From a virus, in IMG/VR virus record IMGVR_UViG_3300028800_000111, positions 1 to 56,118 of that record: a stretch of 56,118 nucleotides of DNA; one strand, given 5' to 3'. The position numbers were made by a program, and so were the translations under genes. Positions 30,601 through 52,996 of this stretch are shown piece after piece. Numbering within the stretch: position 1 is the stretch's first letter; the number at the start of each line of letters is the position of its first letter. The notes below the pieces were generated by a model, which saw only the letters and a program-made list of their open reading frames with translations, did no database searches and had not been told where the DNA came from.

Positions 30601-31513
30601 AGCCCCCACCACTACGCTGAACCAGTACGCGGGCTACACGCTCTCGCTACTGGGCCGTGAAACGCCGGGCGAAGTGCCGCCGATCAATCTGCCCATCGCA
30701 TCGAATACGGCCAGCTCGGGCGGCCTCGTGACGTTCACCATCGGCGCCGGCGCAGACGGCAACACGCTGGTGGACCTGCGTACGATCTTGCAGGCGCTCG
30801 ATCTGCTGGTAATGCGCGGCAAGTACACCTTCACGTCAACGAGCTGCACGGACCCGAATGTCGCGAATTCGTACTTTCCGACGGGCGCGGATGCGAGCGT
30901 AGAGCCGGGGCACGTGGGCGTGGTGATGACCGGCGCGGACACGGGCGATGTAGTGACCGTGCAGAGCGTAACAGCGGATGGGTTCGGCAATTTCACCGTC
31001 TTCAATTTCGCGGCGGCGTTTCAGATAACGCCTGCGACGGGTGACCTCATCATCTTCTGCGATCCGACTTCGACCGAGATCCCGTCCGCCGCGTTCTCGG
31101 CGCGCAACGCGTCGACGGCCGCGGTGGTGGCGACGCCGGATCTGGCGAATTTTGCCAATCAGACGTGGCTGATTCGTGTGCGGGTGAAAGCGGCGGATGA
31201 GAGCTTCGGGCCGGATGCGCTCGCGCCCATGCGGGACGTATATTTCTTTGGCGCGCAGGGGCAGCGGACCATCACGGCGAGCGCCACAATGCTGCCGACC
31301 GATGGCCAGGTGAACGCGATCATCACGGGCGCGGCAACTTACACGTGCTTGGCGTTCTCGACAGTGCCGAATCAGCTTTTTGTGGTGTCGAATGATTCCA
31401 CCAGCACGGCGAATCTGACGGTGGCGGTGCATTCGGGCGATTCGTTTAATGACGGCGCTACGAGCCGCGTGCTGAGTCCCGGCCAGAGCACCACTTTCAA
31501 GGTCAACAGTTAA
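27626..31513 (+). CDS. Tail tip / central fibre protein (gpJ-like), 1295 aa
   Basis: The largest gene. The N-terminus (GAGIGTEISGIGQLIQGDPK, then WSISNGRVRTGGKLVYDHEW) and the block CNGQYELTKLRGAILEDLLT ... GRISYAGGQYTIQPGYW, near residue 560, follow the baseplate-hub fold of lambda gpJ-type proteins. Carbohydrate-binding-like modules (YAAGGVASYNGVDYVSF ... TTHWVPV, and a second AYNANTTYAKGQIVRY ... PSQWASL) lie at about residues 393-430 and 438-492. Beta-sandwich repeats fill the C-terminal third. It should carry receptor contact. Confidence 0.85.
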   Translation: MPRGLFDAILGGVEIAAGIAIDVVSHGTAAAWGNMLIGAGIGTEISGIGQLIQGDPKQGFATLERNSIAPWSISNGRVRTGGKLVYDHEWGNNNNFRDLVIVLNAAPSQIDMDHPVTLLFDQQRVQLDPTAVPKSAAAGYPIPFPNPCSGTSFTPVQQTVNLTSVVRANDVVTFKLADDIPYLIAGDQIIAQNVPGDLTLNGTFQVAEITNAPSSHVGGAVGLGTALWFTVLNGGLAATVTSAGQVRTKWADYGRNVYMEVLNGNQALGDTFIGMTAGTPYQGTGKLGTPASPGSNFGGAAAPNPWSPDTTAGHTPSFCSLQGKTAVFLRIQYMKDYFPSGLPQISFLMYGKSNIYDPRLGNFGAPGTTAYTENAALLIADFLHAGAPNGAPWASGTTYAAGGVASYNGVDYVSFTGANTGNQPDTSTTHWVPVVPSNPITAYNANTTYAKGQIVRYAIPNSQHIDDLGLQYVSIVNSNTGNTPSSSPSQWASLAIEVRQLVDVGYKLNYGSDIPTSPLTTAANVCDQSVTLANGGTEPRYACNGQYELTKLRGAILEDLLTSCAGRISYAGGQYTIQPGYWTGGSPASVNLTSMAAGPYAWKGISIRELFNGVKGTYISPANKWQSTDFPYYAQDAPHGYSGPPQYGGDVNLAVDGGDRRWMELHMLFTISAATAQRIAKIMLLRSRWADLRIGGNGTFPLNMAGYQFAALDIIAATVPFLSFGGKLLEVTSVRFKVDQGKGAPLLGTEIDVRATDSSIYAWSTTEELSAQGYAQSNYPTGTFQEVVPLPWSPGYAPPLAGDAIGGPATFGLEPVYPVDAQGNASAALQVKGTYPINALDTGIEAPLISCVASTSGGSLKPGTYVVGLTAFDSGSANHGNSDYQALAIVEVAGSGSASIAVTVTWGSGDDGGDLYLALWNADQSYVFHQNQTLAPGAGSATITAFTQTTPGGPDPLGDHFGVVFQSVEHSGVWDGQIPTTGSITATTVTITAPTTTLNQYAGYTLSLLGRETPGEVPPINLPIASNTASSGGLVTFTIGAGADGNTLVDLRTILQALDLLVMRGKYTFTSTSCTDPNVANSYFPTGADASVEPGHVGVVMTGADTGDVVTVQSVTADGFGNFTVFNFAAAFQITPATGDLIIFCDPTSTEIPSAAFSARNASTAAVVATPDLANFANQTWLIRVRVKAADESFGPDALAPMRDVYFFGAQGQRTITASATMLPTDGQVNAIITGAATYTCLAFSTVPNQLFVVSNDSTSTANLTVAVHSGDSFNDGATSRVLSPGQSTTFKVNS

Positions 31514-33046
31514 ATGGGGAAGAAGGCTACTACAATCGGCGGTGTTGGCTCGCCTTCAAGCGCCACCGTCCCAGCCGGCGCGGGGCTCTACTACGACTCC
31601 ACGGGAGCGCTGGTAGTCGGCATTGCGCCAAACCCCGGCAATATCGCAGGCAACGGGCGCTTCGACATCCTGGACGGGTCAGGCAACCCGGTAGCGTGGC
31701 ACTTGGCTGGCTCCGCGACCGTATCCTCAACAGCCATTCCAGGCGGCAATCACTCAGTTTCTACGGGCATTACCGGCAGCGCGGTGACATTCCTGTCCTC
31801 TGATCCCATCGCCATATCCGCCGCGCAATCCTACTATGCTCAGTTTATTGCTGAGGTGGACTCGGGAAGCTCTGCGGCAATCCTGTTCTACGCGGATATT
31901 TACGACAACACCAACACGCTTATTAACACCGTGTTGATTAGTGGGTTCGGATCAACGCCGACAACTTGGACCCAGACTGGCAGCCAGTTCGCGGTTCCGG
32001 CCGGAAATGGGTCCACCGTCAAACTGCGCTGGACCGTGCAAGGCTCTGGCTCCGGGCAGGCGCGCATCGGCTCAGTGGCATTGGTCAATACCATCGTCAA
32101 TCCGTACATCGCGCAGAACGCCATTGCCGCCGGCAACATGCAGGCGAACTCGATCACGGCGGCCGGCGGCGCTGTGGCTGCGAACGCCATCGTGGACAGC
32201 AATATCGCCGCGATGAATGTGTCGAAGCTGATTGCGGGCACGGTCATCTTCACGGGGACGGTGTTCTTCTCGCAGGGTTCCGCGAACCCGGTAATGGAGC
32301 TTTCGAGTACGGATATCTATCTATTCGGCGTTGCAGCCACGGGCGGCGGCAGCGGGTTGACGAGTTCGCCATATATCAACATCAACAACAGCCTCGGCGT
32401 GCTAGTTTCGTCGGGCGGCACCGGCCCCTCGGTGACGATCAACGGGGGCGGTGGCGTCACAGTGTGGCAGGTGAACGGCAGCGTGGCGCATCCCTATGTT
32501 TCCGTCTCTGGCACAGGTGTACTGATCTCCGATGGCGGTTCAACAACTCTGACGGCGAGCGCTGGAGCTGTAACAATCCAGAACGGCTCAACACAGGCCT
32601 CGATGTCCGCCAGCGGTTTTGTTGCATCCAACGGAGCCAACAGCGTTACCGTTAATGGCAGCGGCGTTGTGATTGTGGGAGGCTCGCTTACCTCTCCGTC
32701 CATTACGGGCGGAGCGATGAGCGGCACTACTTTAACCTTGGCTGCTACATCGACTGGCGTCACGAAGACAGTTACCCTCAATCCGGCGGCCAACTTCGCT
32801 ACCCCCGTGTTGATCCAATCGAGCACAGGCACAAGTGTTTCCCTCGACCCGGACCTTGGCGTATTTGTGCGTTTCGGTCTTTTGCGCAGCAATCTTCAGT
32901 ACAACGGGCTGCAATTCAACGGCGCGCAAGTGCTTACGACACGCCAAACCGGCCCCGGCACTCCCAGCGGCTGGGCTGATTCGACAGCTCAAACGTGGGC
33001 GGGAAATCTGCTCACCGCTCTGCAAACACATGGCATGGTGACTTAG
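31514..33046 (+). CDS. Tail tip extension / fibre protein, 510 aa
   Basis: The start follows the previous stop directly. The N-terminal 190 residues form a carbohydrate-module-like domain (GNGRFDILDGSGNPVAWHLA). Then NPYIAQNAIAAGNMQANSIT ... AMNVSKLIAGTVIFTGTVFF recalls the C-terminal stalk of gpJ-type proteins (DUF1983-like), and a beta-rich Ser/Gly/Thr stalk follows to GWADSTAQTWAGNLLTAL. Seemingly the split-off end of the central fibre. Confidence 0.7.
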   Translation: MGKKATTIGGVGSPSSATVPAGAGLYYDSTGALVVGIAPNPGNIAGNGRFDILDGSGNPVAWHLAGSATVSSTAIPGGNHSVSTGITGSAVTFLSSDPIAISAAQSYYAQFIAEVDSGSSAAILFYADIYDNTNTLINTVLISGFGSTPTTWTQTGSQFAVPAGNGSTVKLRWTVQGSGSGQARIGSVALVNTIVNPYIAQNAIAAGNMQANSITAAGGAVAANAIVDSNIAAMNVSKLIAGTVIFTGTVFFSQGSANPVMELSSTDIYLFGVAATGGGSGLTSSPYININNSLGVLVSSGGTGPSVTINGGGGVTVWQVNGSVAHPYVSVSGTGVLISDGGSTTLTASAGAVTIQNGSTQASMSASGFVASNGANSVTVNGSGVVIVGGSLTSPSITGGAMSGTTLTLAATSTGVTKTVTLNPAANFATPVLIQSSTGTSVSLDPDLGVFVRFGLLRSNLQYNGLQFNGAQVLTTRQTGPGTPSGWADSTAQTWAGNLLTALQTHGMVT

Positions 33047-33060: not shown

Positions 33061-33396
33061 ATGAGAATACTCGCTTTCTTTCTATTAGCGCTGGCAGTCC
33101 CGGCTGCCACGTGGGACGGCGCCAAGGGAACAATTACCGTCAGCACGCAGGGCGATGGGCTCACTACTATTGTGGCCGTGTCTTCGATTGATCCCGCTGT
33201 CAGTATGTTCCAGGTATCGGCACTCTGCGATTGCGTCGGGCGGCGTTCCATACAGATCATCCCGGCGACGGTGAGTCCAAAGCTTGGGCCGCGATCATCC
33301 TTCGCCGTCTTCGATATTCCCGAGACGGCAATTTATGGCGTATCTGTCATTGCCTTGAAGGCCACGGAAGTTCAGCAGTTTGGAAGCATTCGATGA
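33061..33396 (+). CDS. Small exported protein, 111 aa
   Basis: The ATG at 33061 opens a clean Sec signal (MRILAFFLLALAVPAAT, cleavage about residue 16). The mature part is beta-rich with one CDC motif. It directly follows the tail fibre gene and couples to the next (ATGA 33393). No family recognised. Confidence 0.55.
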   Translation: MRILAFFLLALAVPAATWDGAKGTITVSTQGDGLTTIVAVSSIDPAVSMFQVSALCDCVGRRSIQIIPATVSPKLGPRSSFAVFDIPETAIYGVSVIALKATEVQQFGSIR

Positions 33397-33734
33397 AAAT
33401 CACTCTAAACGGAATGGAAGTACCTTACATGGATTCCATCTTGCAAGTTGCGCGTTCGAATAGTCGCACGGAAGCGCTTCTGATTCGCGATCTGCGGATC
33501 AAGGTTCTGCCACCAAAGCTGAGGGCGGAGATTGAGGTCGCGGGAGCACCTGCTGGCACCTGCAATCGGGCGACCGTCCAAACCATGCAGCCACGTGTCT
33601 GCACGCTGAGCGATGCGGAATCAGCGGTGATGGTCAAAGCCATGGAGCAATTGGAGGCCGGGGTTGGGGTGCGCCAGGAAGACGTGCCATGGTTCTACCG
33701 CGTACTCGACAAGCTGAAGGCGAAGAACCCGTAA
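33393..33734 (+). CDS. Hypothetical protein, 113 aa
   Basis: The start is ATGA-coupled at 33393; the longer upstream frame is ignored. MKITLNGMEVPYMDSILQVA ... AVMVKAMEQLEAGVGV: a small alpha/beta cytosolic protein. No family recognised. Confidence 0.5.
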   Translation: MKITLNGMEVPYMDSILQVARSNSRTEALLIRDLRIKVLPPKLRAEIEVAGAPAGTCNRATVQTMQPRVCTLSDAESAVMVKAMEQLEAGVGVRQEDVPWFYRVLDKLKAKNP

Positions 33735-33742
33735 GGAGCAAT

Positions 33743-34081
33743 ATGATTACGATCACAGTCAAGCAAGACGGACAGCCGGCGCAGAAGTTCACCATCCCGG
33801 ATGAAGCGCAGAAGTCGCTGGAGCAGTACCGCGAATCGCTGCTCGTCTCCAGGCCATTCGAGGTAGAGACGAAGGACGGCGCGAAGGTGATTCAGCACCG
33901 CATGGTTCCGCAGTTCGACTCTGTTCTCGATCTGGCCAAGCGAGCGCTCTTTGAAAACGTCGTGAACCCTGCGTTGCATCGCTTCCCGCCGCCGACTGTC
34001 GCCGAAGCCCAACGCCAGCACGCAGCCGCAACGCAGGCGCTCGCCGATGCGCACGCGAAGTCTGCTGGATTTCTGGAATAA
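33743..34081 (+). CDS. Hypothetical protein, 112 aa
   Basis: AAGGAG six bases upstream of the ATG at 33743. The N-terminus MITITVKQDGQPAQKFTIPD is beta, followed by long helices and an Ala/Gln-rich C-terminus (AEAQRQHAAATQALADAHAK). Perhaps a coiled-coil assembly factor; no family recognised. Confidence 0.5.
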   Translation: MITITVKQDGQPAQKFTIPDEAQKSLEQYRESLLVSRPFEVETKDGAKVIQHRMVPQFDSVLDLAKRALFENVVNPALHRFPPPTVAEAQRQHAAATQALADAHAKSAGFLE

Positions 34082-34085
34082 GCCC

Positions 34086-34439
34086 ATGGACCCCCTCAAC
34101 TCCACCGCGCTCGAAGCCGCCGGCATCGCGATAGTAGACCGCGCGCAGCAAGCGCTGGGAGCCGAACGCGTGGCGCTCCTGGCCGCCCTGGACGCGCGGG
34201 AAGGGCCGCTGGTGCTCCAGCTATCCAACCTACTGGCAGGGGCCTTGCAGGGGCTGCAAGCGACGGAAGACAAAGCGGCAGGAGATCTGCATGGCTTGCT
34301 GGACAGGCTGAACGGCGCGTCAGTGGCAATGTCACTGGAAGAGGGCCGGGCAGTTTGGAAGCTCTCAATTCCACCGCGCAAGATCGATATCACTGTTTTA
34401 TCCGGCACAGCCGGGAACGAATCCGCCTCCAAGCTTTGA
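34086..34439 (+). CDS. Helical hypothetical protein, 117 aa
   Basis: The ATG at 34086 follows the previous stop. Alanine/leucine-rich helices (ALGAERVALLAALDAREG, then LVLQLSNLLAGALQGLQ). The last 14 residues are encoded by repeat copy C2, so the original end may have been changed. Confidence 0.45.
   Translation: MDPLNSTALEAAGIAIVDRAQQALGAERVALLAALDAREGPLVLQLSNLLAGALQGLQATEDKAAGDLHGLLDRLNGASVAMSLEEGRAVWKLSIPPRKIDITVLSGTAGNESASKL
34398..34419 (+). repeat. Dispersed repeat family C, copy 2
   Basis: TTAT + CCGGCACAGCCGGGA + ACG: one base differs from copies 1, 3 and 4 (GAGCG). CTGTT precedes it, as CTGTT or TTGTT does in copies 3 and 4. It lies at the 3' end of the gene above. Confidence 0.7.
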
Positions 34440-34464
34440 TGATTTGCCAGCGGAGTATTGATCG

Positions 34465-34520
34465 TCGGTGGCTCAACTCCACGTCTTCGTAGCGCGACAC
34501 GACGGTGCGCGATGCAACAG
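34465..34520 (+). repeat. Dispersed repeat family B, copy 4 (diverged)
   Basis: TCGG near 34465 and GGTGCGCGATGCAACAG at 34504-34520 match, in order and near spacing, the two conserved ends of family B. It lies immediately upstream of the ribosome site (GAAAGGAAG) of the next gene. Confidence 0.35.
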
Positions 34521-34542
34521 TAACTCGAAAGGAAGCTCTCAG

Positions 34543-34911
34543 ATGACTTACAAACGTGTCTATGTCCCCGTGCTCCTGGCCTTCGTCGTGGCCTCGTGCG
34601 GCCTACTGATATCCGAGCGCCACGTTCACGCTCAAGGCCCCGGCATACTCACCACCTACGCCGACGTAACAGCTAACGGCGCAGCCCAAGCACTCGCAGG
34701 CAGCGGCGCATGCGGCTCGCTGCAACTTGTGGCGCTGAATACCAACACCGGAGTCATCCGCTTCGGAGACGCGAATGTGAGCGCCACGCAAGGCATCCCG
34801 CTCTATCCCGGCAGTCCAGACCGGGAAGCATTGCCCTACACCATCAATCTCTCAGCAATGTACTTCTACGGAGCATCGGGCGATAAGCTCAGCTTCACGT
34901 GCATGCGGTAA
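34543..34911 (+). CDS. Small exported protein, 122 aa
   Basis: AAAGGAAG upstream. The N-terminus MTYKRVYVPVLLAFVVASCG ... RHVHAQG is a signal or anchor with a likely cut after HAQ. The mature part (TTYADVTANGAAQALAGSGA ... GVIRFGDANVSATQGIPL) is beta-rich and resembles small virion or surface proteins seen in metagenomic phages. Placed directly before the beta-helix protein. Confidence 0.55.
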   Translation: MTYKRVYVPVLLAFVVASCGLLISERHVHAQGPGILTTYADVTANGAAQALAGSGACGSLQLVALNTNTGVIRFGDANVSATQGIPLYPGSPDREALPYTINLSAMYFYGASGDKLSFTCMR

Positions 34912-34924
34912 CCGGAGGCTCATC

Positions 34925-36784
34925 ATGCGAACGATCCTGACGACTCTTTTGGTGTGCGCTGGGCTTCCCTGCGCCGCGTATGGGCAGGCGGTGGGCGTGC
35001 AGCCGCCCGCGCTGCCGATCAAGTGCGCGGGTGGTAGCTGTACGATAAGCAATACGCTGCCAAACCTCGTCGGCACAACTACCTTCTATGCCGACCTGTA
35101 CAGCGGGGCCGATGCGAGCGTGAAAATCAATGCCTGTATCCAGCAGGCGATTCTCTCCAGCGGCATCCTGCGCAGTGTTACCGTCACGACGGGTACCGAT
35201 ACCAGCCTCCCGAATTCCGGCTCCTGGATTACGTCAGGCGGCGGGGGAACAGGGGCCACTGGCACTTTTACCGCCAGTGGTGGAAATTTGGCCACGGTCA
35301 CGATTACAACAGGCGGGGCCGGGTACGCCAGCAACCCTACGCTTGTCCCGAATAGCGGCTCCATCGGTACAAGCGCCATCAGTTTCGCAGGCGATGGAGG
35401 CACATGCGATGCCCGCAAGCTCGGTGGCACGCAATCCCAAGCGATGTCCCAGACGATTGCGCTGGGCAGCGTAGGTCAATCAGCCAACGCGGTTGGAGTC
35501 ACACTGCTGCTTCCCAATACGGGCCTTTGGACGTGGGGCCTCACGGGCGGTACGGCGTGCGGTCTGTACCAATATGGCGGCACTAGTCTAATCGGAACCG
35601 CCGTGGGCGGCGGCTCCAATCGAATGTATTTGGACGCTGCGGGCGGTGCCAACATGGACAGCCTGTATTGCACTGAGGCCTCACCGAGCGGCGGTGGTGC
35701 ATATATTCGCGCTGAAGGTTTTTACGTGCGGAACTCTGGCGGTGGGGCCTTTGCTAACGGACTCGCTCATTTCCGAAAACTGTGGGATGAGTCTCACTTC
35801 CAATGGATTTCCGTCAACAATCCCACTGGCGACGGCATGGTGATCGAACAGGCCTGCTGCGGCGACACCTTTGATAATTTCTACGTGTACGGGTCTGGCG
35901 CAACGACCAACAATGCGTCCGGGTATCCGCTGAAGATTCTCGGCGGGACCATCGGCGATGCGGCCATCAAGATCAGCAACAGCACGTTCAACGGTCCAGG
36001 CAAGGGCAAGTACAACATCTACATCGCTCCAACGGGCGGCGCAACTGTTCGGAGCCTGACCTTCGACAACGTGTATCTGGAGAAGTACTCCACGGACGAT
36101 GCTTCGACGGCTTTGGTTTACAACGGTGCGAATTCCAACGGCGTGCATTTCACGGGCGGTTACGCTTGGCCGGGAACGCAGTGCAATTCGGCTTGCACGC
36201 AAGTCATTTTCGAGAACCATTCCGACGATGGCTTTCAGGTCGATAATTTCGGCATCTACTATACCGACACAGCTGCCATCAACGATGTGGCCAACGGGAT
36301 TTCGATTCCAGGGCCTAGCGGACTCTACGATTGGTTCGCCCACTACTCGGCGACCATAACGCACAATGGATCGTACGCCAATGGCCCCATCCCTCAGATT
36401 GTTTACGTCAACGATCAAACGGCCCAAACCGCGAATCTCGCAGGGACATACACGGTCCCCTCGACCGATGCCGGGGCCTACCGGGCAACTTGCTACGTTG
36501 TGCTGACACGAGCCGCAACCAGTTCCTCAACCCTACCCAACTGCTACATCAACTACACCGACGAGGACACCAGTCACGGGAATAGCTATTGGTTCACCGG
36601 CAATGGGTACACCGGCAACTCCGTTGGAGGCAGCAACCTTAATCAGGCCTCCGCAAACGGAGCCATTTTCAACGCGGCGGCATCGTCCACGATTCAGATC
36701 GGAACCACGAATTACGCCAGTTCGGGAGCCACGGCGATGCAGTACGCCGTCCATGTTCAGTTGGAACTTCTGCGACGGCACTAG
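34925..36784 (+). CDS. Beta-helix tail-spike-like protein with signal peptide, 619 aa
   Basis: Residues 1-21 (MRTILTTLLVCAGLPCAAYG, cut near AYGQ) form a Sec signal. The rest shows a tail-spike plan: TTTFYADLYSGADASVKINA, the usual start of a pectate-lyase-like right-handed beta-helix, then rungs rich in N, G, T and I (ALVYNGANSNGVHFTGGY, FENHSDDGFQVDNFGIYY), and a C-terminal beta domain. Such proteins bind or cut surface glycans. A Sec signal on a virion spike is unexpected; it may instead be a host-displayed glycan-binding protein. Confidence 0.7.
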   Translation: MRTILTTLLVCAGLPCAAYGQAVGVQPPALPIKCAGGSCTISNTLPNLVGTTTFYADLYSGADASVKINACIQQAILSSGILRSVTVTTGTDTSLPNSGSWITSGGGGTGATGTFTASGGNLATVTITTGGAGYASNPTLVPNSGSIGTSAISFAGDGGTCDARKLGGTQSQAMSQTIALGSVGQSANAVGVTLLLPNTGLWTWGLTGGTACGLYQYGGTSLIGTAVGGGSNRMYLDAAGGANMDSLYCTEASPSGGGAYIRAEGFYVRNSGGGAFANGLAHFRKLWDESHFQWISVNNPTGDGMVIEQACCGDTFDNFYVYGSGATTNNASGYPLKILGGTIGDAAIKISNSTFNGPGKGKYNIYIAPTGGATVRSLTFDNVYLEKYSTDDASTALVYNGANSNGVHFTGGYAWPGTQCNSACTQVIFENHSDDGFQVDNFGIYYTDTAAINDVANGISIPGPSGLYDWFAHYSATITHNGSYANGPIPQIVYVNDQTAQTANLAGTYTVPSTDAGAYRATCYVVLTRAATSSSTLPNCYINYTDEDTSHGNSYWFTGNGYTGNSVGGSNLNQASANGAIFNAAASSTIQIGTTNYASSGATAMQYAVHVQLELLRRH

Positions 36785-36813
36785 CAACGTATTTTTTCCC
36801 TACGGTAATCGCA

Positions 36814-37071
36814 ATGATGCCCGCGCCCATCACCGAACCCGCAGTGCTCTCCGTGGAGGCCAAGCAGCGCATGGAGAAGTTCACCAACTACCTCTATGCG
36901 CGATGCGGGCTCGCGGAGAGCACTATCGGATTGGTTACCGGCTACGTGCGGCGCATGATTCCGGCGACTGGCCTGACGCCCTCTGCGGAAGCGCTGGAGC
37001 AATACATCGCGGATATGCGGCGGCGCAAAGTCTCTTACGGCAACCTGACCTTTTGCGTGAACGCGTTTTGA
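36814..37071 (+). CDS. Stand-alone SAM-like (tyrosine recombinase N-terminal) domain, 85 aa
   Basis: EKFTNYLYARCGLAESTIGL ... VRRMIPATGLTPSAEALEQY ... VSYGNLTFCVNAF follows the core-binding domain of XerC/phage tyrosine integrases (helix, GLA-x-STI, Y...V, then the K-x-S-Y-x-x...F helix). The catalytic domain is missing: the stop comes 11 bases before repeat copy C3. Either a truncated integrase fragment or a small regulator using the domain. Confidence 0.55.
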   Translation: MMPAPITEPAVLSVEAKQRMEKFTNYLYARCGLAESTIGLVTGYVRRMIPATGLTPSAEALEQYIADMRRRKVSYGNLTFCVNAF

Positions 37072-37082
37072 TTCTGTTTCCA

Positions 37083-37100
37083 CCGGCACAGCCGGGAGCG
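37083..37100 (+). repeat. Dispersed repeat family C, copy 3
   Basis: CCGGCACAGCCGGGAGCG, preceded by CTGTTTCCA as in copies 2 and 4 (TGTTT-AT). It sits right after the truncated recombinase-like gene. Confidence 0.75.
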
Positions 37101-37151
37101 CTTCTGACTCACAGTTTGTAATCTCCCATCACCGAAAAGGAATCCAATCTT

Positions 37152-38165
37152 ATGAAGACTCTTGTAATCTCGATTTGCGCCTTCGCCGCGCTGCTCTGCG
37201 CGCAAGGCTCCGATTCCGCGGCCTCCATGGACTCCGTACAAGTCCAGGTAGGGCCGAACCTGCCGCTGCACTACCTGCCCGCCGCGATGCCCTACGACGC
37301 GGGCGCGGCGGCATTGCATCCCGTCCACGTGGTACACCGGCGCCCGAAGGCGGGATGCTTCGACACCGCGACGTGCGGCGAGCTCGTGTCCGATGAGTGG
37401 ACGCACAATCTGCGAACCTCTGCCGGCACGACGTATCAGTACAATCAGATGCTCGGCTCGACGGCAGCCGTGATGGCGTATATCGGCCTGACCAATACCG
37501 CCATCACACCCGCCGAAGCGGACGCCACGCTCTCGGGCGAGATCGCGACGAACGGCCTCTCGCGCGCCATCGCAACGCCCACCAACTCTTCGACCACGCT
37601 CAGCGTACCCGCCGCGCCTACGCTTGCGGTGACGGGCGGCTCGGGCGGCACGGCGCAGTTCTACTTCGTGGAGTCGTGCAACTTCGGCATCTGCACGACG
37701 CCCAGCTCCGCGTCGGCCTCGGGCACGCCCAACGCCACGCTCGACGCCACGCACTACATCACCGGCACGTTCACGGGGCAGCTCGGCGCGCAAAGCTATG
37801 TCATCATCCGCAGCAACTCCAGCTCAGCGCCCAGCGGCTCGCTCGGCGGCGGTTCGACGCAATCCTCCACTGGGCAGGTGGGAGCGCCGGCGATTGCCTG
37901 CACAACGAGTGGCACAGTGGTTACCTGCACGTTCGTCGATCAGAGCAACACCGTGGCAGCGTACACCGTGCCGGGTTCGAACTTGACGAATTTCGGCAAG
38001 GCCACGCTGGTGGAGACCTGGACGGCGACTGGCGCGCAGTCCGCGCAGGCGTTCGGGATCTTCAACGCCAGCAGCTCGGGGACGATGGGCTTCGAGGGCA
38101 CGTTCACTCCCGTCAGCCTCAACACTTCAGACACGCTGCAAATAACATGGTCGCTTTTTTTCTGA
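37152..38165 (+). CDS. Exported fibre-like protein, 337 aa
   Basis: AAAAGGAA upstream. Residues 1-18 (MKTLVISICAFAALLCAQ) form a Sec signal. The middle holds TTYQYNQMLGSTAAVMAYIG, as in phage-associated proteins with N-terminal fibre domains; the rest is Ser/Thr/Gly beta-sheet (SSTTLSVPAAPTLAVTGGSG). It precedes another exported repeat protein. Function unknown; a surface or virion fibre is likely. Confidence 0.6.
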   Translation: MKTLVISICAFAALLCAQGSDSAASMDSVQVQVGPNLPLHYLPAAMPYDAGAAALHPVHVVHRRPKAGCFDTATCGELVSDEWTHNLRTSAGTTYQYNQMLGSTAAVMAYIGLTNTAITPAEADATLSGEIATNGLSRAIATPTNSSTTLSVPAAPTLAVTGGSGGTAQFYFVESCNFGICTTPSSASASGTPNATLDATHYITGTFTGQLGAQSYVIIRSNSSSAPSGSLGGGSTQSSTGQVGAPAIACTTSGTVVTCTFVDQSNTVAAYTVPGSNLTNFGKATLVETWTATGAQSAQAFGIFNASSSGTMGFEGTFTPVSLNTSDTLQITWSLFF

Positions 38166-38193
38166 TTCCGATGCGCTTGTCTGATTAACGCAA

Positions 38194-40371
38194 ATGTCCC
38201 GCCCGCTCCTCATCGCCGCGCTGCTGCTCGCCACGTCTCCCGCGTGGGGCGCGTACACGTACTACCGCACCATCACGACGGACCACACGCAGGCGGGCAC
38301 GGCGGATTCTTCCAGCTTCCCTGTGCTCGTGATGCTGAGTAATGGCGGGGTGGGGTACAGCGTGGGTACGACGCTTAAGACGGTCGCCAATGGCGGGCAC
38401 GTCAATAACACCGTCACGCAGTCCGGTGGAGTGGGCGGCACGGAGCCAGCAGACTTAGTGTTTGGCACCACGAATACGTGCTCTACCTTGCTCCCTTGGG
38501 AAACGGAAAGCTATAGTGCGACGACCGGTACGCTAATCGCCTGGGTGAAGCTCTCTACTCTTCACCACAGTTCGAACGACACGTTTTATATGTGCTATGG
38601 GGATGCCTCGGTAACTACCCAGCAAAACACCGGAGCGTTCAGCCCCTCATTTACCTGGGACTTCTCGTACAAGGGCGTCTATCACTTTATCGATGGCACG
38701 ACGTTGAACCTGATCGATTCCGGCAATGCGGCGAACACGATGACGCACCTCAATAACACGTCAACCGCGACTGCTGGGATTATCGACGGAGGGGTCAGTT
38801 ATACCGGGCAGAACGATACCACCACAAGCTCCTTTGCCATCGGAGCGGGGTCGAACTGGAGTGTTGAATACTGGGTAAACCTCAATAACGTCTCGTATGG
38901 TAAAGGAACCTGGACACTCGGTCTGTCAAACAATTACGCGGATACCTTTGACGGAACGAATATTATATTCAGATGGGCTGGGGTTACGGTGCAGGCAGCA
39001 ATGACAACCGGGTCCTGGGTCCATGTAGCTATGACCGTGGACAGCGCCGGCACGACGATGACGTTGTACCTCAATGGTGTTTCCGTAGCGTCTGGGTCCA
39101 GCGCGGCGAACACGTCCCAAAACACGTTCATCACCGGGTCGAACGTAAACGACTTCATGAGCGGCACGATGGACGAAATGCGAGCGTCGACTGCTGTTCG
39201 CAGCTCATCTTGGATCACGGCCGACTACAACAACCAAAAGGCCTCCAGCACGTTCCTGACAATCGGCGCCCAAACGGGCGGTTCGGTCGCCTACAACGCG
39301 GCGGTGCTCGACGCGCTCTCCGCGTTCGACGCGGGCGCGGGCGTGGCCGCGCACTTCGCCACGCCGCGCGACACGGCGCTGGCGTTTGAACGCGCCACGG
39401 GCTTCGCGGCGCACTTCGGGGTAGTGTCGGACCGGATCTACCTTTCGGAATCGTCCACGGTCCACGGGGCGCATTTCGCGGTACCGTCAGACGCGCCCCT
39501 GCTGAGCGAGCGCGCCACGGGCTTTGCAGCGCACTTCGGGGCAGCGTCAGACCGCACATACCTAGCGGAAGGCTCCACGGGGCTCGCTGCACATTTCGCG
39601 GGGCCATCAGACGCGCCGCTGCTCAGCGAATCGGCGGCGGCCCATGCAGCGCACTTTGGGGCGGTGTCGGACGCGATGCGCTTCAGCGATACGGGCGTGG
39701 AATTCGCGGCGCATCTGGCGGCGGCGGCCGACGCCATGCGATTGAGCGACGGCGGATCGACCTTTGCCGCGCACTTCGCCACGGCGTTCGACACATCGCG
39801 GTTGGGTGAGGGCGTTACGGCCTTGCGGGTGAAGCTGATCTTCGTGAGCGATGTGATGGGCGCGTTCGACAGCGCGGCGCGGATCGCGGGCTTGCATGTG
39901 GCGGGGGTGGATGCGCCGGGGGTGTCCGATGCTGCGAGTGAGAGTGCGGGGCTGCATGTGTCGGCGTCCGATGCGCTGGGATTGCGTGAGGGCGTTACGA
40001 GAGGGCGTGCGGTGAGTGTGTCGGATGTGCTGGCGGGAGCGGACGCGGCGAGCCGCCTGGCTGCGCATTACGCGCTGGCGTCGGATGTGCTTGTGATGGC
40101 GTCCACAGTGGGAGCGATACGCGGGCGTGTGGTGTCGGTGTCTGATGGCACGGCGGTAGTGGAAGTAAGCGGGACGCAAGCAGGGCGGTTCCGCGCGGTG
40201 CTCGATGCGATGGGGTTGCGAGAGACGCTGGAGCATACTGGGAGTGCGGCAGTTGTAATTCTGCCGGAGCACTTAGCTGTATATCTAGAGTTTGTGAAGC
40301 TGGCGAGTTACTTGCAGTCGCTGTTTGGGGCGTATGTGAAACAAGTAACTGTGTTGATTGTCGGGCAATGA
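38194..40371 (+). CDS. Exported DUF2341/LamG protein with 20-residue repeats, 725 aa
   Basis: A Sec signal (MSRPLLIAALLLATSPAWG). Residues 20-150 resemble DUF2341 (YYRTITTDHTQAG ... FPVLVMLS ... VKLSTLHHSSNDTFYMCYGD), a glycan-binding-like domain. Residues 155-365 are a LamG/concanavalin-like sandwich (GSNWSVEYWVNLNNVSYGKG ... HVAMTVDSAGTTMTLYLNGV). From about residue 370 a chain of 20-residue units (AAHFx3SDx3LSEx6 pattern) follows, about ten regular and several degenerate. It ends in a hydrophobic helix (FVKLASYLQSLFGAYV). Likely adhesive; display site unknown. Confidence 0.7.
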   Translation: MSRPLLIAALLLATSPAWGAYTYYRTITTDHTQAGTADSSSFPVLVMLSNGGVGYSVGTTLKTVANGGHVNNTVTQSGGVGGTEPADLVFGTTNTCSTLLPWETESYSATTGTLIAWVKLSTLHHSSNDTFYMCYGDASVTTQQNTGAFSPSFTWDFSYKGVYHFIDGTTLNLIDSGNAANTMTHLNNTSTATAGIIDGGVSYTGQNDTTTSSFAIGAGSNWSVEYWVNLNNVSYGKGTWTLGLSNNYADTFDGTNIIFRWAGVTVQAAMTTGSWVHVAMTVDSAGTTMTLYLNGVSVASGSSAANTSQNTFITGSNVNDFMSGTMDEMRASTAVRSSSWITADYNNQKASSTFLTIGAQTGGSVAYNAAVLDALSAFDAGAGVAAHFATPRDTALAFERATGFAAHFGVVSDRIYLSESSTVHGAHFAVPSDAPLLSERATGFAAHFGAASDRTYLAEGSTGLAAHFAGPSDAPLLSESAAAHAAHFGAVSDAMRFSDTGVEFAAHLAAAADAMRLSDGGSTFAAHFATAFDTSRLGEGVTALRVKLIFVSDVMGAFDSAARIAGLHVAGVDAPGVSDAASESAGLHVSASDALGLREGVTRGRAVSVSDVLAGADAASRLAAHYALASDVLVMASTVGAIRGRVVSVSDGTAVVEVSGTQAGRFRAVLDAMGLRETLEHTGSAAVVILPEHLAVYLEFVKLASYLQSLFGAYVKQVTVLIVGQ
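39345..40200 (+). repeat. Tandem 60-bp coding repeats
   Basis: Units of 60 bases coding for 20 residues, with AAHF at the start and SDA.LSE in the middle, regular from about 39345 to 39950, then drifting and with one longer unit. Near-identical DNA stretches between units (for example around 39420, 39540 and 39660) suggest recent duplication. Confidence 0.75.
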
Positions 40372-40374
40372 AGA

Positions 40375-40436
40375 TGTTGGATCGCGCATCGAGCTTTCGC
40401 GTCGTGTTGTTTGAGGGTTCTGTGGGGCCGATGGCT
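40375..40436 (-). repeat. Dispersed repeat family B, copy 2
   Basis: Read on the minus strand: TAGCCATCGGCCCCACAGA at one end and GATGCGCGATCCAAC at the other, the same length as copy 1 at 41878-41938 to within one base. It lies right after the repeat-protein gene. Confidence 0.7.
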
Positions 40437-40483
40437 ACGCCTAAAGTTTGCAGTTGAATCTGAGAGAAAGGAGGAATCGCAAA

Positions 40484-40777
40484 ATGGATAAGCCGGATTT
40501 GAGCGCGCTTCGCGTTGGTGGCCGCGTCGTATTTGTTGACCCCGTGGCAGTGCAGCATGAAGCGCTCGTAACCGCTGTTTGGGGCAATCCCGCCAATAGC
40601 GTGCCGTGCATCAATATCGTGTTCGTAAGCTCTGACGATAAGATGCAAGACCCGTACGGGCGGCAGATCGAGCGCCAAACTTCGCTGTGCCACCGTTCGG
40701 TCAATCCCGCTCATGGTTTCTATTACATGATGCCGGGAGATACGCCGAACCCGATTGTAGCCGCGTTCGAGAAGTAA
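40484..40777 (+). CDS. Hypothetical protein, 97 aa
   Basis: A very strong ribosome site (AAAGGAGG) precedes the ATG at 40484. Small beta protein (VGGRVVFVDPVAVQHEALVT ... INIVFVSSDDKMQDPYGRQI). High predicted expression; no family recognised. Confidence 0.6.
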   Translation: MDKPDLSALRVGGRVVFVDPVAVQHEALVTAVWGNPANSVPCINIVFVSSDDKMQDPYGRQIERQTSLCHRSVNPAHGFYYMMPGDTPNPIVAAFEK

Positions 40778-40779
40778 AG

Positions 40780-40830
40780 GCGCGGGGCTGGTCGCGGAAC
40801 CGATGAGGGACCACAAACGACTGGCCGCGC
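40780..40830 (+). other. Long hairpin before small exported gene
   Basis: Bases 40780-40794 pair with 40818-40830 (GCGCGG with CCGCGC, then CTGGTCG with CGACTGG using G-U pairs), in the gap between two genes. It may control read-through or the translation start at 40849. Confidence 0.35.
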
Positions 40831-40848
40831 GGCGGAGGCGATAAAGCA

Positions 40849-41229
40849 ATGAAACTCCTGTCAGCAATAACGCTCGTAACACTCTTCGCGTTTACCTGCG
40901 GCGCAGTCAGTCTGCTCACGATCACAAAGACGCCCTATGAAGCCTTCACGTGCGGCGTGGACTTCGCGCAAGTCATCGGATCGGACGGCATGACGCTGCT
41001 CGCTGTGGTGGCCACGGACCCGGTAACCGGCACGGATGTGACCAGCACGTATATCGCAGCGAGCCCGGCGCCCGCGATTGTGCCCGCGACAAGCAAGGTA
41101 GCGTTTCGCGTGCAGGGCGGCGCGAACAACAAGCGCGCAGTGATCGGCGTACGCGTGCAGGACTCGACTACCGGGGATATCTTCGAGGGCCAGATTACAC
41201 TGCAAATCAGCAGCGGAACGGGGCACTAG
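40849..41229 (+). CDS. Small exported protein, 126 aa
   Basis: GGCGGAGG upstream. A Sec signal (MKLLSAITLVTLFAFTCG). The mature part is an Ig-like beta sandwich (LLAVVATDPVTGTDVTSTYI ... VAFRVQGGANNKRAVIGVRV). The gap of one base to the next ATG suggests co-translation. No family recognised. Confidence 0.55.
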   Translation: MKLLSAITLVTLFAFTCGAVSLLTITKTPYEAFTCGVDFAQVIGSDGMTLLAVVATDPVTGTDVTSTYIAASPAPAIVPATSKVAFRVQGGANNKRAVIGVRVQDSTTGDIFEGQITLQISSGTGH

Positions 41230-41230
41230 C

Positions 41231-41407
41231 ATGAGCTTCCTTCGCAAGCTGGCAAGCATCATTCACTTCGGCCCCGACCCCTCGCCGAACGCGGCGTACT
41301 TGCGCGAGATGGAAGCGGAATCACAGCCCGGCCCTGGCGCGCTGGAGTTGCAGCGCAAGACGCGCGAAGCGGAAGAGGCGACACGCGAAGAGGAGCGCCT
41401 ACCGTGA
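41231..41407 (+). CDS. Small charged protein, 58 aa
   Basis: Starts right after the previous stop. MSFLRKLASIIHFGPDPSPN is an amphipathic start, followed by an E/R-rich coiled coil (ALELQRKTREAEEATREEER). Its stop overlaps the next start (GTGA 41404). Unknown. Confidence 0.5.
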   Translation: MSFLRKLASIIHFGPDPSPNAAYLREMEAESQPGPGALELQRKTREAEEATREEERLP

Positions 41408-41562
41408 CGTGGGAGCATGCGTGGCGGGTTGTGGTGGCGACGCATCTGCGCTTGGCCTGCTGGCATCTGCGCCGGTTGCGCGTGTTCGCCGCGTGGGGTT
41501 GCTTTCGCTCGGCGCGGTTTCAGGCGCGGTACGCGTCGGGGTTCGATGAGGTGAATTCATGA
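41404..41562 (+). CDS. Small basic protein, 52 aa
   Basis: GTG start overlapping the previous stop; stop overlapping the next ATG (41559). Arginine- and tryptophan-rich (VTWEHAWRVVVATHLRLACW). Coupling supports it; no family recognised. Confidence 0.4.
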   Translation: MTWEHAWRVVVATHLRLACWHLRRLRVFAAWGCFRSARFQARYASGFDEVNS

Positions 41563-41801
41563 AGACGAAGTGCTTGATTCTCGTGGTGCTGCTGGCCGCG
41601 TGTTTGTGTGCGTGCATCAGCGTGCGGCATCAGCGGGTGAACGTGGTGAACGTGGGCGGGCCGTGCGGGCGCGCGAATGTTAATGGCAAGGACGGGGTCG
41701 CGTGCATTTCGTGCGGGTTCTGTCCGTTGGATAAGACTTGCTGGGTACAAGATGCGTTTGGAGTATTTAATAAGTGCCCAAAGCGGAAATCTAGTAAGTA
41801 A
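41559..41801 (+). CDS. Small cysteine-rich lipoprotein, 80 aa
   Basis: MKTKCLILVVLLAACLCACI has a lipobox (LLAAC), so lipid attachment at Cys15 or Cys19 is likely. The mature part contains CISCGFCPLDKTCW, a disulphide-rich knob. It could be a spanin-like or superinfection-exclusion lipoprotein; the position upstream of lysis genes fits either, without proof. Confidence 0.55.
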   Translation: MKTKCLILVVLLAACLCACISVRHQRVNVVNVGGPCGRANVNGKDGVACISCGFCPLDKTCWVQDAFGVFNKCPKRKSSK

Positions 41802-41806
41802 CGTGA

Positions 41807-41866
41807 TCTTATGTTGGACAACCTTGGGCCTCGGGCGATTCGCGATCAACGAGTACGCCAGTCGCC
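41807..41866 (-). repeat. Dispersed repeat family A, copy 3
   Basis: On the minus strand GGCGACTGGCG ... TTGTCCAACATAAGA with the constant 45-base offset. Together with the adjoining family B copy it fills much of the 305-base gap 41802-42106, which otherwise shows no gene. Confidence 0.75.
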
Positions 41867-41877
41867 TTCGGACTCCT

Positions 41878-41938
41878 AGCCATCGGCCCCACAGAGCCAT
41901 CCACGGCAGCGTGCGAAAGAACGATGCGCGATCCAACA
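41878..41938 (+). repeat. Dispersed repeat family B, copy 1
   Basis: TAGCCATCGGCCCCACAGAG at the left, GATGCGCGATCCAAC at the right. Same ends as the inverted copy at 40375-40436. It lies 11 bases from family A copy 3. Confidence 0.7.
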
Positions 41939-42106
41939 GCCATCTTAGTCAAGGAATCGAAGCGTATCTCTGCTCGATAGAAAGAAGGCAAGTAACACTT
42001 ATCGAACATAGATTATCCGCATAGTACATTCCCGCAAACGACAAGGAACGCGGTGGGAGCCAAAGCAACCAACTCCCGCCGCGATTCCCCAAACGAAAGG
42101 TAAATC

Positions 42107-42673
42107 ATGACAATCAAATCACTCGCTGTAATCACTCTCGCGTCCGTACTGCTCGCTTGCGCGGCATTCGGGCAAACCACTACTCCCGTAACTCCGGTCT
42201 TCCCCAGTTTCCCTATGCCGGTAGGCGTCGCGGCCTTCGCCGAGTTCAATCAACTTGGCAACCCGCGATTCACTCTCGGCGTCTCAGCCATCTACCCGGT
42301 AAGCGGGCAAGCAGGCGTATACGGAACCACTACGGCAGATATCCTGCCGCGAAAGGCCGTAGATCCCGCCACGGGTAAGAGCTTCTACGCGATCCAATCG
42401 AGCGTGCGGCAGGGCTTTCACAAGGACATCCTCGACACGGGACACCTCAGTATCTTGCTCGGCGGCGACATTGGGCCCAGCTTCAGCTCTTCCGGGGGCT
42501 CGGTGAATATCGACTTCTCGACATCGTTTGTTCTCACTCCGGTCTATCAGGTGTCGAAGGCGTTCTCGATCATTGCGCCGGTCCGCGCTCTGTATGTGGC
42601 GGGAGTGGGCTGGAATCCCATCCTCGAGGCGGGCGTGGTCATCAATCTGGCAAGTCTGCCGGCGAAGAAATAG
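42107..42673 (+). CDS. Exported beta-barrel-like protein, 188 aa
   Basis: GAAAGGTAA upstream. A signal peptide (ITLASVLLACAAFG, cut before QTT). The mature part alternates hydrophobic and polar strands (FTLGVSAIYPVSGQAGVYGT, STSFVLTPVYQVSKAFSII, AGVGWNPILEAGVVINLASL), like small outer-membrane barrels of 8 strands. It may change the host surface or help lysis. Inference from pattern only. Confidence 0.55.
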   Translation: MTIKSLAVITLASVLLACAAFGQTTTPVTPVFPSFPMPVGVAAFAEFNQLGNPRFTLGVSAIYPVSGQAGVYGTTTADILPRKAVDPATGKSFYAIQSSVRQGFHKDILDTGHLSILLGGDIGPSFSSSGGSVNIDFSTSFVLTPVYQVSKAFSIIAPVRALYVAGVGWNPILEAGVVINLASLPAKK

Positions 42674-42675
42674 CT

Positions 42676-43068
42676 ATGACCTTCACCCAACTAAAAAGCC
42701 ACGTCGTATTTGTCGTACTCATGGTAGTTGCGATCCTCACCGCGCTGCCGCCTTCGGTGCTCGACGCCATCCCTCCGGACTGGAAGCCATTCGTAGCGGC
42801 CGCTATCTCAATCGCCGTGTGGGCGAAGGGGCAGAAGAACCTGGGAATCAATCCCAACGGCACGCCTGCCGCGCTGCCCTACGCGCCGAGCACGCCCGAA
42901 CTGCTAGGCGCCGCGCAGGCCGCGTATGAGGCGTACCGCGCGCAGTCTGGTGGTAAGTCTCTGGCCACGGGCGCGCCCATTCCGGACTGGTCAAAGCTGT
43001 CTGAGGCGATTCAGCAAGGCTGGCAGGTCGCGGCATCCGCCGCCAAGGCGCATGAGGGCGCGGCGTGA
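42676..43068 (+). CDS. Holin-like membrane protein, 130 aa
   Basis: One clear transmembrane helix (VVFVVLMVVAILTAL, residues 11-25) and a second hydrophobic stretch (PFVAAAISIAVWA), then a polar alanine-rich tail. Two bases after the barrel gene, and its end overlaps the endolysin GTG by four bases. A holin or antiholin is likely from context. Confidence 0.55.
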   Translation: MTFTQLKSHVVFVVLMVVAILTALPPSVLDAIPPDWKPFVAAAISIAVWAKGQKNLGINPNGTPAALPYAPSTPELLGAAQAAYEAYRAQSGGKSLATGAPIPDWSKLSEAIQQGWQVAASAAKAHEGAA

Positions 43069-43493
43069 TCCAGGATCAATACCCCAACGTCCTGCTGGCC
43101 CTCTGCCTCTGGCGTGAGGCGCGCGGCCAGTCGCTCGAAGTGAAGCGCGCGATCCGTTGGGTGATTCTCAACCGCGTGGCGCATCCCAGCGGGCCGTTCG
43201 TGGCGTGCAGGGACCTCGTGTCAACGATCCTCTGCCCGCGTCAGTTCTCGTCGTTCAATGCGGGCGATCCGAATGCCGCGAAGATGCCGAGTCCCAAGAA
43301 TCCGGCGGACTGGGCTGCATGGCTTGCGTGCTGCGCGGTGGTCGACGAGCCCACCGAAGACGCGAGCGGAGCTTCGCTCGACACGACGGGCGGCGCAAAT
43401 TACTACTTCGATACATCCATCCAGCCGCCCGCGTGGGCTGATCCGCTGAAGCTCACCAAGCAAATCGATACGACGCGATTCTACAAGCTGTAG
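43065..43493 (+). CDS. Endolysin, SleB-type cell-wall hydrolase, 142 aa
   Basis: LALCLWREARGQSLEVKRAI ... RWVILNRV is the hallmark of the Hydrolase_2/SleB family (catalytic Glu in WREARG), with CRDLVSTILCPRQFSSFN and GANYYFDTSIQPPAWA later on, which form the usual substrate cleft. It cuts glycan strands of peptidoglycan. No signal peptide, so it needs a holin, and two candidates flank it. GTG start coupled to the gene before. Confidence 0.85.
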   Translation: MIQDQYPNVLLALCLWREARGQSLEVKRAIRWVILNRVAHPSGPFVACRDLVSTILCPRQFSSFNAGDPNAAKMPSPKNPADWAAWLACCAVVDEPTEDASGASLDTTGGANYYFDTSIQPPAWADPLKLTKQIDTTRFYKL

Positions 43494-43500: not shown

Positions 43501-43983
43501 GTGAAACAGTCCATGCGCAAACTCTTCGCTATCTCGCTGCCAGGTGCGGCCTCCTGGTTTCTGGGGGTGTACGCGTCTGTGCTCGCCAGTATCCCCCTCG
43601 CTGTTCAGACCTACATGCTATTGGCGGTCGCGGACTGGATTGTGGGCGCTGTCAATGCGGGCCTGCGCGGCGTGTTTTGTATTCGGGAATCGGTGGAGGG
43701 GCTGTGGCGGAAGGTGATGACGCTGATTTTGATTGGCGTGGCGCATCACATCATGACGCCGCTGCATTTGCCGCTCGATGTGCCGAACACGATTGCGGTA
43801 GCCTTCGTGATTAATGAGGCGATTTCCATCGTGCTGAATATGGCCGATGCGGGGCTGCCGATTCCTCCAGCGTTGGTTGAGATCCTCGCGCAGATGCGCA
43901 AGTATACGGGCCGTGGGAAGAGTGGCAAGCAGGTGCGCGCCGAGATCGACGGGCAAGGGCAGTCGTCCGAGGATGTGGCTTGA
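43501..43983 (+). CDS. Phage holin (holin 4 family-like), 160 aa
   Basis: GTG with AGGAGG just upstream. Three hydrophobic segments (SWFLGVYASVLASIPLAVQT, YMLLAVADWIVGAVNAGL, VMTLILIGVAHHIM) and the motif INEAISIVLNMADAGLPIPP with a charged tail are those of the phage holin / toxin-secretion family. It directly follows the endolysin. Confidence 0.8.
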   Translation: MKQSMRKLFAISLPGAASWFLGVYASVLASIPLAVQTYMLLAVADWIVGAVNAGLRGVFCIRESVEGLWRKVMTLILIGVAHHIMTPLHLPLDVPNTIAVAFVINEAISIVLNMADAGLPIPPALVEILAQMRKYTGRGKSGKQVRAEIDGQGQSSEDVA

Positions 43984-44608: not shown

Positions 44609-44788
44609 ATGATCGATCCGAAGTGGAAAGAGAAGCCCGTGCGTGAGTTAGTGAAGGAGTGTAAGGCTGATGGGACGATTCTTCAGTCGAAAACGCTCAT
44701 TGGTTTTTATGTTGAACGACCCAGGGATCTTGCGATTCACGATCAACGAGTACGCCAGTCGCCTTCGGATGTTAGCCGGGCGGAATAA
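44609..44788 (+). CDS. Hypothetical protein read through a repeat, 59 aa
   Basis: MIDPKWKEKPVRELVKECKA ... LIGFYVERPRDLA then residues derived from family A copy 4. A plausible short gene whose second half comes from the repeat. Low certainty. Confidence 0.35.
   Translation: MIDPKWKEKPVRELVKECKADGTILQSKTLIGFYVERPRDLAIHDQRVRQSPSDVSRAE
44704..44763 (-). repeat. Dispersed repeat family A, copy 4
   Basis: On the minus strand GGCGACTGGCG ... CGTTCAACATAAAA with the constant 45-base offset; its first 31 bases are nearly the same as in copy 3 (one difference). It lies next to the toxin-antitoxin pair. Confidence 0.7.
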
Positions 44789-49495: not shown

Positions 49496-50005
49496 ATGAA
49501 GACTCTTCAGCCCGCCCTTGCGTTCCTGCTTTGCTTCACCGTCCCAGCCCTGACCCTTGACGCTGCCAAGGTGAAGCCTACCCAGGCGGCTTATCCAGTA
49601 ATCTACTCGGGCGGTTCGCTGCCGACGGTCCAGCCGGGCCAACTGATGAATCTCTTCATCGATCAGGATCAAGTGCGGCTGGTGATGACAGGAAAGAAGG
49701 CAAATCCGGAACCGTTTATCATCAAAACGGCGACGATTACGGAAGTGAGCTACGGGCAGGAAGTTCACCGGCGCATCGGCACGGCTGTAGGGCTAGCGGT
49801 CATCTCGCTGGGGATTGGGCTGCTTGTGGCGCTCAGCAAGTCGAAGAAGCATTACATCGGGCTCGTCTGGGATGCGGGCGCTGGGCAGAAGGGCGGGCTA
49901 GTGGTGCAGGCCGACAAGAACCAGTATCGGGGTCTCATTGCGGCCCTGGAAGGAATCACCGGCAAGAAAGCCGTGGACACGGACAGCACCAAGCCGGGCT
50001 CGTAA
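49496..50005 (+). CDS. Exported or membrane protein with own promoter, 169 aa
   Basis: A signal peptide (MKTLQPALAFLLCFTVPALT). A beta part follows (GQLMNLFIDQDQVRLVMTGK), then a transmembrane helix at about residues 96-114 (GTAVGLAVISLGIGLLVALS) and a small C-terminal domain. A stand-alone gene between convergent and divergent neighbours with its own strong promoter: a likely lysogenic-conversion gene expressed from the prophage. Confidence 0.6.
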   Translation: MKTLQPALAFLLCFTVPALTLDAAKVKPTQAAYPVIYSGGSLPTVQPGQLMNLFIDQDQVRLVMTGKKANPEPFIIKTATITEVSYGQEVHRRIGTAVGLAVISLGIGLLVALSKSKKHYIGLVWDAGAGQKGGLVVQADKNQYRGLIAALEGITGKKAVDTDSTKPGS

Positions 50006-50758: not shown

Positions 50759-50781
50759 ACGCGTATGCATACGCGTATGAT
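50752..50781 (+). promoter_or_regulatory. Early rightward promoter with tandem palindromic operators
   Basis: TTGACA (50752-50757), 18-base spacer, TATGAT (50776-50781): near-consensus. Two back-to-back copies of the 12-bp palindrome CATACGCGTATG (50756-50767 and 50768-50779) fill the spacer, so a bound dimer blocks polymerase. The repressor start codon is in the first copy. Confidence 0.8.
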
Positions 50782-52633: not shown

Positions 52634-52996
52634 ATGATTAAGCGATTCTTGTGTCTATCGGTGTGCTTGCTCGCATTTACGGTCGCGGCCAGCGCACAGC
52701 AGCCCATTAGCGACGTGCTGATGTGGGGCTACAGCAATCAGATTATCGGCTTGCCCGGCAACGGCCAGCCCCTGACCTACTACACGATGGCAGGCGCGCA
52801 CGCCGCGCCCGACGTCCTGTCGGTAACCTTCACACTACAACTGCGCGACGGTACGGCCGTGTCGCTTACCACCACGCCCTCCAGCGGCTTGGCGCTGGTG
52901 TGCTTCGAAGGCGTGGCGTACAGCGACGTGGTGGGCCAGCCAATCGTCGCAGCCCGCAGCGAGCCGGTGTTCGCGGGAGCGCGGCGGCGCAGGTAA
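52634..52996 (+). CDS. Small exported protein, 120 aa
   Basis: TAGGAG nine bases upstream. A clear Sec signal (MIKRFLCLSVCLLAFTVAAS, cut at ASA-QQ). The mature part is beta-rich (LTYYTMAGAHAAPDVLSVTF). It follows the structured leader. Unknown; perhaps secreted or periplasmic. Confidence 0.55.
   Translation: MIKRFLCLSVCLLAFTVAASAQQPISDVLMWGYSNQIIGLPGNGQPLTYYTMAGAHAAPDVLSVTFTLQLRDGTAVSLTTTPSSGLALVCFEGVAYSDVVGQPIVAARSEPVFAGARRRR

Follow-up and report, generated by a model that had tools for sequence, protein, structure and literature searches.

A gene block predicted to encode Sec-exported proteins in the tail module of a siphovirus-type phage

Tailed-phage particles are assembled in the cytosol, and fibres bearing an export signal are unusual because the virus is built inside the cell. 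A block of eight genes whose products begin with Sec-type signals, found in the IMG/VR virus record IMGVR_UViG_3300028800_000111, therefore raises the question of where these proteins go and what they do there. The window analyzed here is the whole of that record, 56,118 bases, and its ends share a direct repeat of 126 bases, so the genome is probably complete and circularised. Profile matches identified genes for terminase, portal, maturation protease, major capsid protein, tape measure, and a J-like tail tip, which marks the virus as a siphovirus-type phage. Searches with the J protein retrieved relatives from IMG/VR contigs and from only one bacterial genome record, that of a Terriglobia (Acidobacteriota) MAG, and by this homology the host is most likely an acidobacterium. 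The block sits between the J gene and the lysis genes, the position of a tail/fibre module (Table 1); its genes are named below by their first base.

Table 1. Features of the tail/fibre and lysis region and two outlying genes with predicted signals. Export is predicted; a slash marks the end of a signal; SD, Shine-Dalgarno motif.
Position	Strand	Product	Evidence and remarks
27626..31513	+	J-like tail-tip protein, not exported; opens the host-contact module	PHROG tail fiber protein, E 5e-44; central tail fiber J, E 2e-26
31514..33046	+	Fibre-like protein without signal	Adjoins J gene 3'; scorer negative; weak carbohydrate-binding match, E 0.008
33061..33396	+	Exported small protein, two Cys	Signal MRILAFFLLALAVPA/ATW
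34543..34911	+	Exported small protein	Signal end VHA/Q or possible lipobox VASC
34925..36784	+	Exported 619-aa strand-rich protein, 12 Cys in mature part	Signal end AYG/QAV; good SD
37152..38165	+	Exported tail-fibre-family member, three close Cys pairs	Relatives, and PHROG match of the L044 copy
38194..40371	+	Exported DUF2341 and LamG protein with C-terminal repeats D2, D3, D6	Pfam Laminin_G_3, E 4e-13; DUF2341, E 1e-7; no SD
40849..41229	+	Exported small protein	Very weak likeness to fibre-tail adaptor Gp77, E 0.07, below cut-off
41559..41801	+	Lipoprotein, Cys-rich	Lipobox LCAC
42107..42673	+	Exported small strand-rich protein, outer-membrane-like by pattern	Immediately 5' of lysis genes
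42676..43068	+	Membrane protein	Weak holin-like match
43065..43493	+	Endolysin (cell wall hydrolase)	Pfam Hydrolase_2, E 6e-8; PHROG endolysin, E 7e-9
43501..43983	+	Holin	PHROG holin, E 3e-12
49496..50005	+	Exported or membrane protein outside the block	Scorer positive
52634..52996	+	Exported small protein outside the block	Scorer positive; strong SD

The genome also has an HTH gene (50030-50770) and a HigBA toxin-antitoxin pair on the minus strand (44795-45489), made up of a HigB toxin (Pfam E 3e-25) and an adjoining HTH partner. No integrase was found among the proteins searched in the 56,118-base genome, and the HigBA pair in a circular phage genome makes a plasmid-like prophage possible. 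A short ORF at 36814-37071 resembles the N-terminal core-binding domain of tyrosine recombinases, with no Pfam match at E 0.05. Elsewhere, a Ferritin-like domain protein (14849-15376; Pfam E 4e-7) is encoded with the portal gene on one side and the maturation protease gene on the other, and a Glycosyltransferase family 2 gene (20859-21590; Pfam E 6e-10) lies within the head-tail module.

Signals were called with a rule-based Sec scorer; because it was first applied to candidates from the window itself, more weight rests on the controls described here than on the raw calls. All eight signals proposed for the block by the sequence-only reading were convincing, seven being of the signal-peptidase-I type and one, 41559, that of a lipoprotein; examples of the former are 34925, which begins MRTILTTLLVCAGLPCAAYG/QAV, and 38194, which begins MSRPLLIAALLLATSPAWG/AYT. 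Between 31.5 and 42.7 kb the scorer was positive for 8 of 16 genes, versus 5 of 66 elsewhere in the window (Fisher p 2.8e-4), and some of these five probably reflect a wrong start or a membrane segment. For the terminase ORF (11537), whose homology begins only at residue 69, a wrong start probably accounts for the apparent signal. Chance hydrophobic N-termini in GC-rich DNA were ruled out, as only 2 of the window's 278 non-gene ORFs scored positive. The corresponding count for the genes of five control phages was 14 of 278, and from the 48 annotated genes of lambda the scorer picked only Lom, Rz, Rz1, Bor, and RexB, all known exported or membrane proteins. Three further exported proteins had been proposed outside the block; those at 49496 and 52634 held up, and the one at 49013 was dropped because its ORF begins MPNQIDRRITLG.

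The N-termini might nonetheless serve no export at all, being hydrophobic segments of virion proteins or artefacts of annotation, a reading that gains from the reliance of the calls on sequence rules and from the lack of a Shine-Dalgarno motif before 38194. The other seven genes of the block do have such a motif, and a check for later starts that would remove the signals, up to 70 codons downstream, found none with a motif better than a 3-base match, which ruled out such starts as credible alternatives. With the signal also retained in 27 of 30 relatives, cysteines that are paired and even in number, and signal-bearing genes clustered far beyond chance, we consider this reading very unlikely.

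The cysteines provide evidence that is independent of the signal calls. Control fibres were gathered by scanning IMG/VR for one common fibre-shaft motif, NITVDAKGRVT, and among the motif-defined ORFs with an intact N-terminus only 1 of 67 had a Sec signal. The exported set of the window contains 33 cysteines in 2160 aa and its exported relatives 114 in 8972 aa, whereas the 49 control fibres have 93 in 27,678 aa, and their GC-rich subset was the same at 0.34 per 100. An even number of cysteines was found in 15 of 18 Cys-bearing exported proteins (binomial p 0.004, some of the sequences being related) versus 17 of 38 controls, in a count that omits the possible lipidated or signal-peptide cysteines of 34543 and 41559. 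This paired and mostly even pattern suggests folding in the oxidising periplasm. A study of five rumen phage genomes listed 0-2 signal peptides per genome (PMC5723332). Taken together, the signals, start sites, cysteine pattern, and recurrence in relatives support the view that the proteins of the block are very probably exported by the host Sec system and folded outside the cytoplasm.

The sequence-only reading had described the block as a fibre region, and this description applies to at least one protein, 37152. Its alignment to a 166-aa protein from Chlorobiaceae phage CV-1-33 (L044:7653-8153) covers both domain ends, and the phage protein matches a PHROG tail fiber protein family (E 4e-10) and has no signal. 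Signal-free relatives were also found in two viral contigs (L045, L047) and two other Acidobacteriota genomes (L180, L182), bearing out for 37152 the suggestion that related phages might carry the same gene minus the signal. Because the signal-free homologue matches the tail-fiber family, 37152 is, by homology, a member of a tail-fibre family to which a signal has been added. After removal of the signal it would retain six cysteines, predicted to pair closely at 69-75, 176-181, and 250-259, where the relatives have 0-1.

The description as a fibre region suits other members of the block less well, as 42107 looks like a small protein of outer-membrane type, 41559 has the signal of a lipoprotein, and 34925 has its nearest relative on a bacterial chromosome. 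The DUF2341 and LamG domains proposed for 38194 were confirmed by Pfam. A beta-helix had been proposed for 34925, and the protein gave no Pfam match, no PDB match, and an AlphaFold model of pLDDT 37 when predicted alone; the model of 42107, predicted with four sequences, reached pLDDT 36. Both models were too poor for a fold search, so the beta-helix of 34925 and a beta-barrel for 42107 are unproven. PHROG searches returned no tail-fibre match for 34543, 38194, 40849, or 42107, and neither 42107 nor 41559 had a Pfam or PHROG match, the Lom and Bor families and known exclusion proteins included. No family could be assigned to 33061, 34543, 40849, or 41559. Searches of phage records with 34543, 40849, and 34925 yielded no relatives, and none of 34925 or 38194 was found among viral contigs. 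A relative of 34925, 31-39% identical and with a signal-like start, was found in 1 of 396 Acidobacteriota genomes, flanked by ordinary chromosomal genes outside any recognisable prophage; this host-like relative could be a phage remnant.

Exported relatives of 42107 occur in three other phages, L014/L036 (9568-10146, 43-44% identical), L050 (5875-6465, 40%), and L017 (18403-18927, 23%), in every case close to endolysin genes. A membrane-anchored protein of about 240 aa is encoded next to the exported 42107-like gene and the endolysin gene in L036 (7741-8448), L050 (4893-5624), and L017 (19569-20306), and the two proteins possibly form an inner/outer membrane lysis pair.

Two repeats are dispersed among the genes. 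A hairpin element of about 40 bases, CCGGCACAGCCGG, has copies at window positions 689-732, 34393-34436, 37074-37117, and 53970-54011; two of these copies flank the gene group 34543-37071, which might be a cassette. A second intergenic repeat, GCGATTCGCGATCAACGAGTACGCCAGTCGCC..., is located between exported genes at 40375-40437 (minus strand), 41835-41938 (plus), and 44732-44769 (plus). An Rfam search gave no matches, including for the latter repeat. Sites for separate promoters or terminators of the exported genes were not above chance, although the host may use promoters of a different kind.

Signal-bearing proteins of this kind recur in phages of the presumed host group, sampled as 396 genomes of the single phylum Acidobacteriota, some of which are MAGs, so that contamination is possible. 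J-related phage G002 encodes an exported protein of 196 aa whose N-terminal domain is present in 38 of the 396 genomes, mostly as one copy each. The signal was found at the best-scoring start in 27 of the 30 loci examined for this exported fibre domain, and in the remaining three the N-terminus was signal-like by eye, at the best-scoring or another start. J-related phage G003 has exported paralogues of 800 and 435 aa, the latter matching virion-protein PHROGs that include head decoration (E 5e-7). In Acidobacteriota prophage G392 an exported 476-aa protein with a tail-protein PHROG match (E 4e-11) is encoded one gene past a J-like gene, and at the prophage-like locus G001 an exported 709-aa protein that matches tail-fiber PHROGs (E 1e-33) is encoded directly 3' of a weakly tape-measure-like gene. 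Across these groups the exported fibres share no more than the signal and roughly the next 100 residues, with differing distal parts, and the same N-terminal domain is found in phage types whose neighbouring genes differ.

Besides the locus in G001, the gene neighbourhood was read at six loci with this domain (L170-L173, L176, and L183), and terminase- and portal-type genes or close likenesses were nearby wherever the stretch reached them, by profile in L170 and by sequence likeness in L171-L173, L176, and L183. They share a phage-like cluster in which terminase, portal, head-tail adaptor, and HipA-like genes accompany one or two exported fibres (350-1550 aa). Neither a tape measure nor a lysis gene was recognised within these stretches, and the cluster could be a domesticated prophage or a gene-transfer-type element.

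The sequence-only reading had offered two mechanisms, display by the lysogen and export of fibres ahead of release. The findings bear first on the second of these, in the form of a late fitting of exported fibres to the virion, such that heads and tails built in the cytosol meet periplasm-matured, disulfide-bonded fibres once lysis opens the inner membrane. In favor of late fitting are the tail-fibre family of 37152; the tail-fibre, tail, or virion PHROG matches of exported proteins in G001, G392, and G003; and the position of the G001 fibre gene. The exported protein is also the sole fibre candidate seen in the phage-like clusters, the block belongs by position to the tail module, and virion fibres typically combine, as these do, a conserved N-terminal base and a variable distal part. 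But one base domain accompanies different tail modules, no convincing virion homology was found for 34925, 38194, 41559, or 42107, and a search of the open-licence literature turned up no tailed phage whose tail fibres are described as Sec-exported. To our knowledge, no route of periplasmic fibre maturation followed by joining at lysis has been described for tailed phages. Late fitting is thus a possibility that we hold to be rather unlikely, and we regard as slightly more doubtful still the general form of the idea, that tailed phages of Acidobacteriota mature Sec-exported, disulfide-stapled fibres in the periplasm and join them to cytosol-built particles at lysis.

We instead prefer, with about even confidence, use of the proteins at the cell surface by display or secretion. 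The products of a late phage gene block would pass through the host Sec system with removal of their signal peptides, and the mature proteins would fold outside the cytoplasm, several with disulfide bonds. By their sequences, 37152 would derive from tail-fibre families, 34925 and the LamG protein 38194 would resemble secreted bacterial proteins, and the lipoprotein 41559 and small barrel-like 42107 look like envelope proteins. Serving as adhesins or as covers for receptors, the set would then work at the producing cell's surface or envelope, and the block may be an enlarged version of lambda's exported genes, with lom beside J and bor elsewhere. Display is favored because the block includes both a lipoprotein and a protein of outer-membrane-like pattern, the latter with relatives near lysis genes in three other phages, because 34925 has as its nearest relative a chromosomal gene that stands alone and has a signal-like start, and because lambda lom, whose product is scorer-positive, offers a precedent at the same place, directly 3' of J. 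In addition, the occurrence of one exported N-terminal domain among differing neighbour genes is more readily explained by a shared envelope target than by a shared tail socket. Against display, no outer-membrane anchor was seen on 34925, 37152, or 38194, and Sec alone takes proteins only to the periplasm. The exported genes are located within a virion module, with promoter and terminator signals not above chance, so their expression in a lysogen is hypothetical.

A narrower purpose for surface proteins would be mainly to cover receptors on the infected cell, thereby excluding other phages or protecting progeny, in the manner of Llp, Cor, and Ltp. Exported fibre-like domains and a lipoprotein do stand within one block, and signal-bearing exclusion proteins of the Ltp type are known (PMC11480721), but Pfam and PHROG homology to known exclusion proteins is absent and eight genes encoding proteins of up to 725 aa go beyond the usual need of exclusion, making this purpose improbable.

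If tail fibres do make use of their export signals, phages either routinely place their own receptor-binding proteins on the host surface or fit some fibres outside the cytoplasm. The exported fibre domain is present in about one-tenth of the sampled genomes of Acidobacteriota, a phylum dominant in soil of which few phages have been studied, and the question is therefore testable in cultured lysogens.

The block can be compared with several known systems. Lambda Lom and Bor, proteins of a temperate phage, have Sec signals as the block proteins do, and lom directly follows J; however, the lambda genes are single and isolated, whereas here eight genes include tail-fibre-family and lectin-type proteins, and Pfam and PHROG searches did not match 42107 to Lom. 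Domains of phage tail fibres (phrog_4176, phrog_6320, phrog_4900) are found in the 37152, G001, and G392 proteins, directly or via a homologue, but ordinary tail fibres are Cys-poor and signal-free (a signal in 1 of the 67 in the motif-based sample), unlike the proteins of the block. The Ltp, Cor, and Llp exclusion lipoproteins resemble only 41559, as small exported lipoproteins with a lipobox; there is no sequence similarity, and most block proteins are larger and not lipidated. PblA and PblB of a streptococcal phage are likewise phage tail-type proteins displayed on the bacterial surface, but they are not known to carry Sec signals and arrive there once cells have lysed. The prophage-encoded Eib adhesins, trimeric autotransporters, are exported fibrous proteins from tailed prophages, and differ in having a membrane anchor of their own, of which none was seen here.
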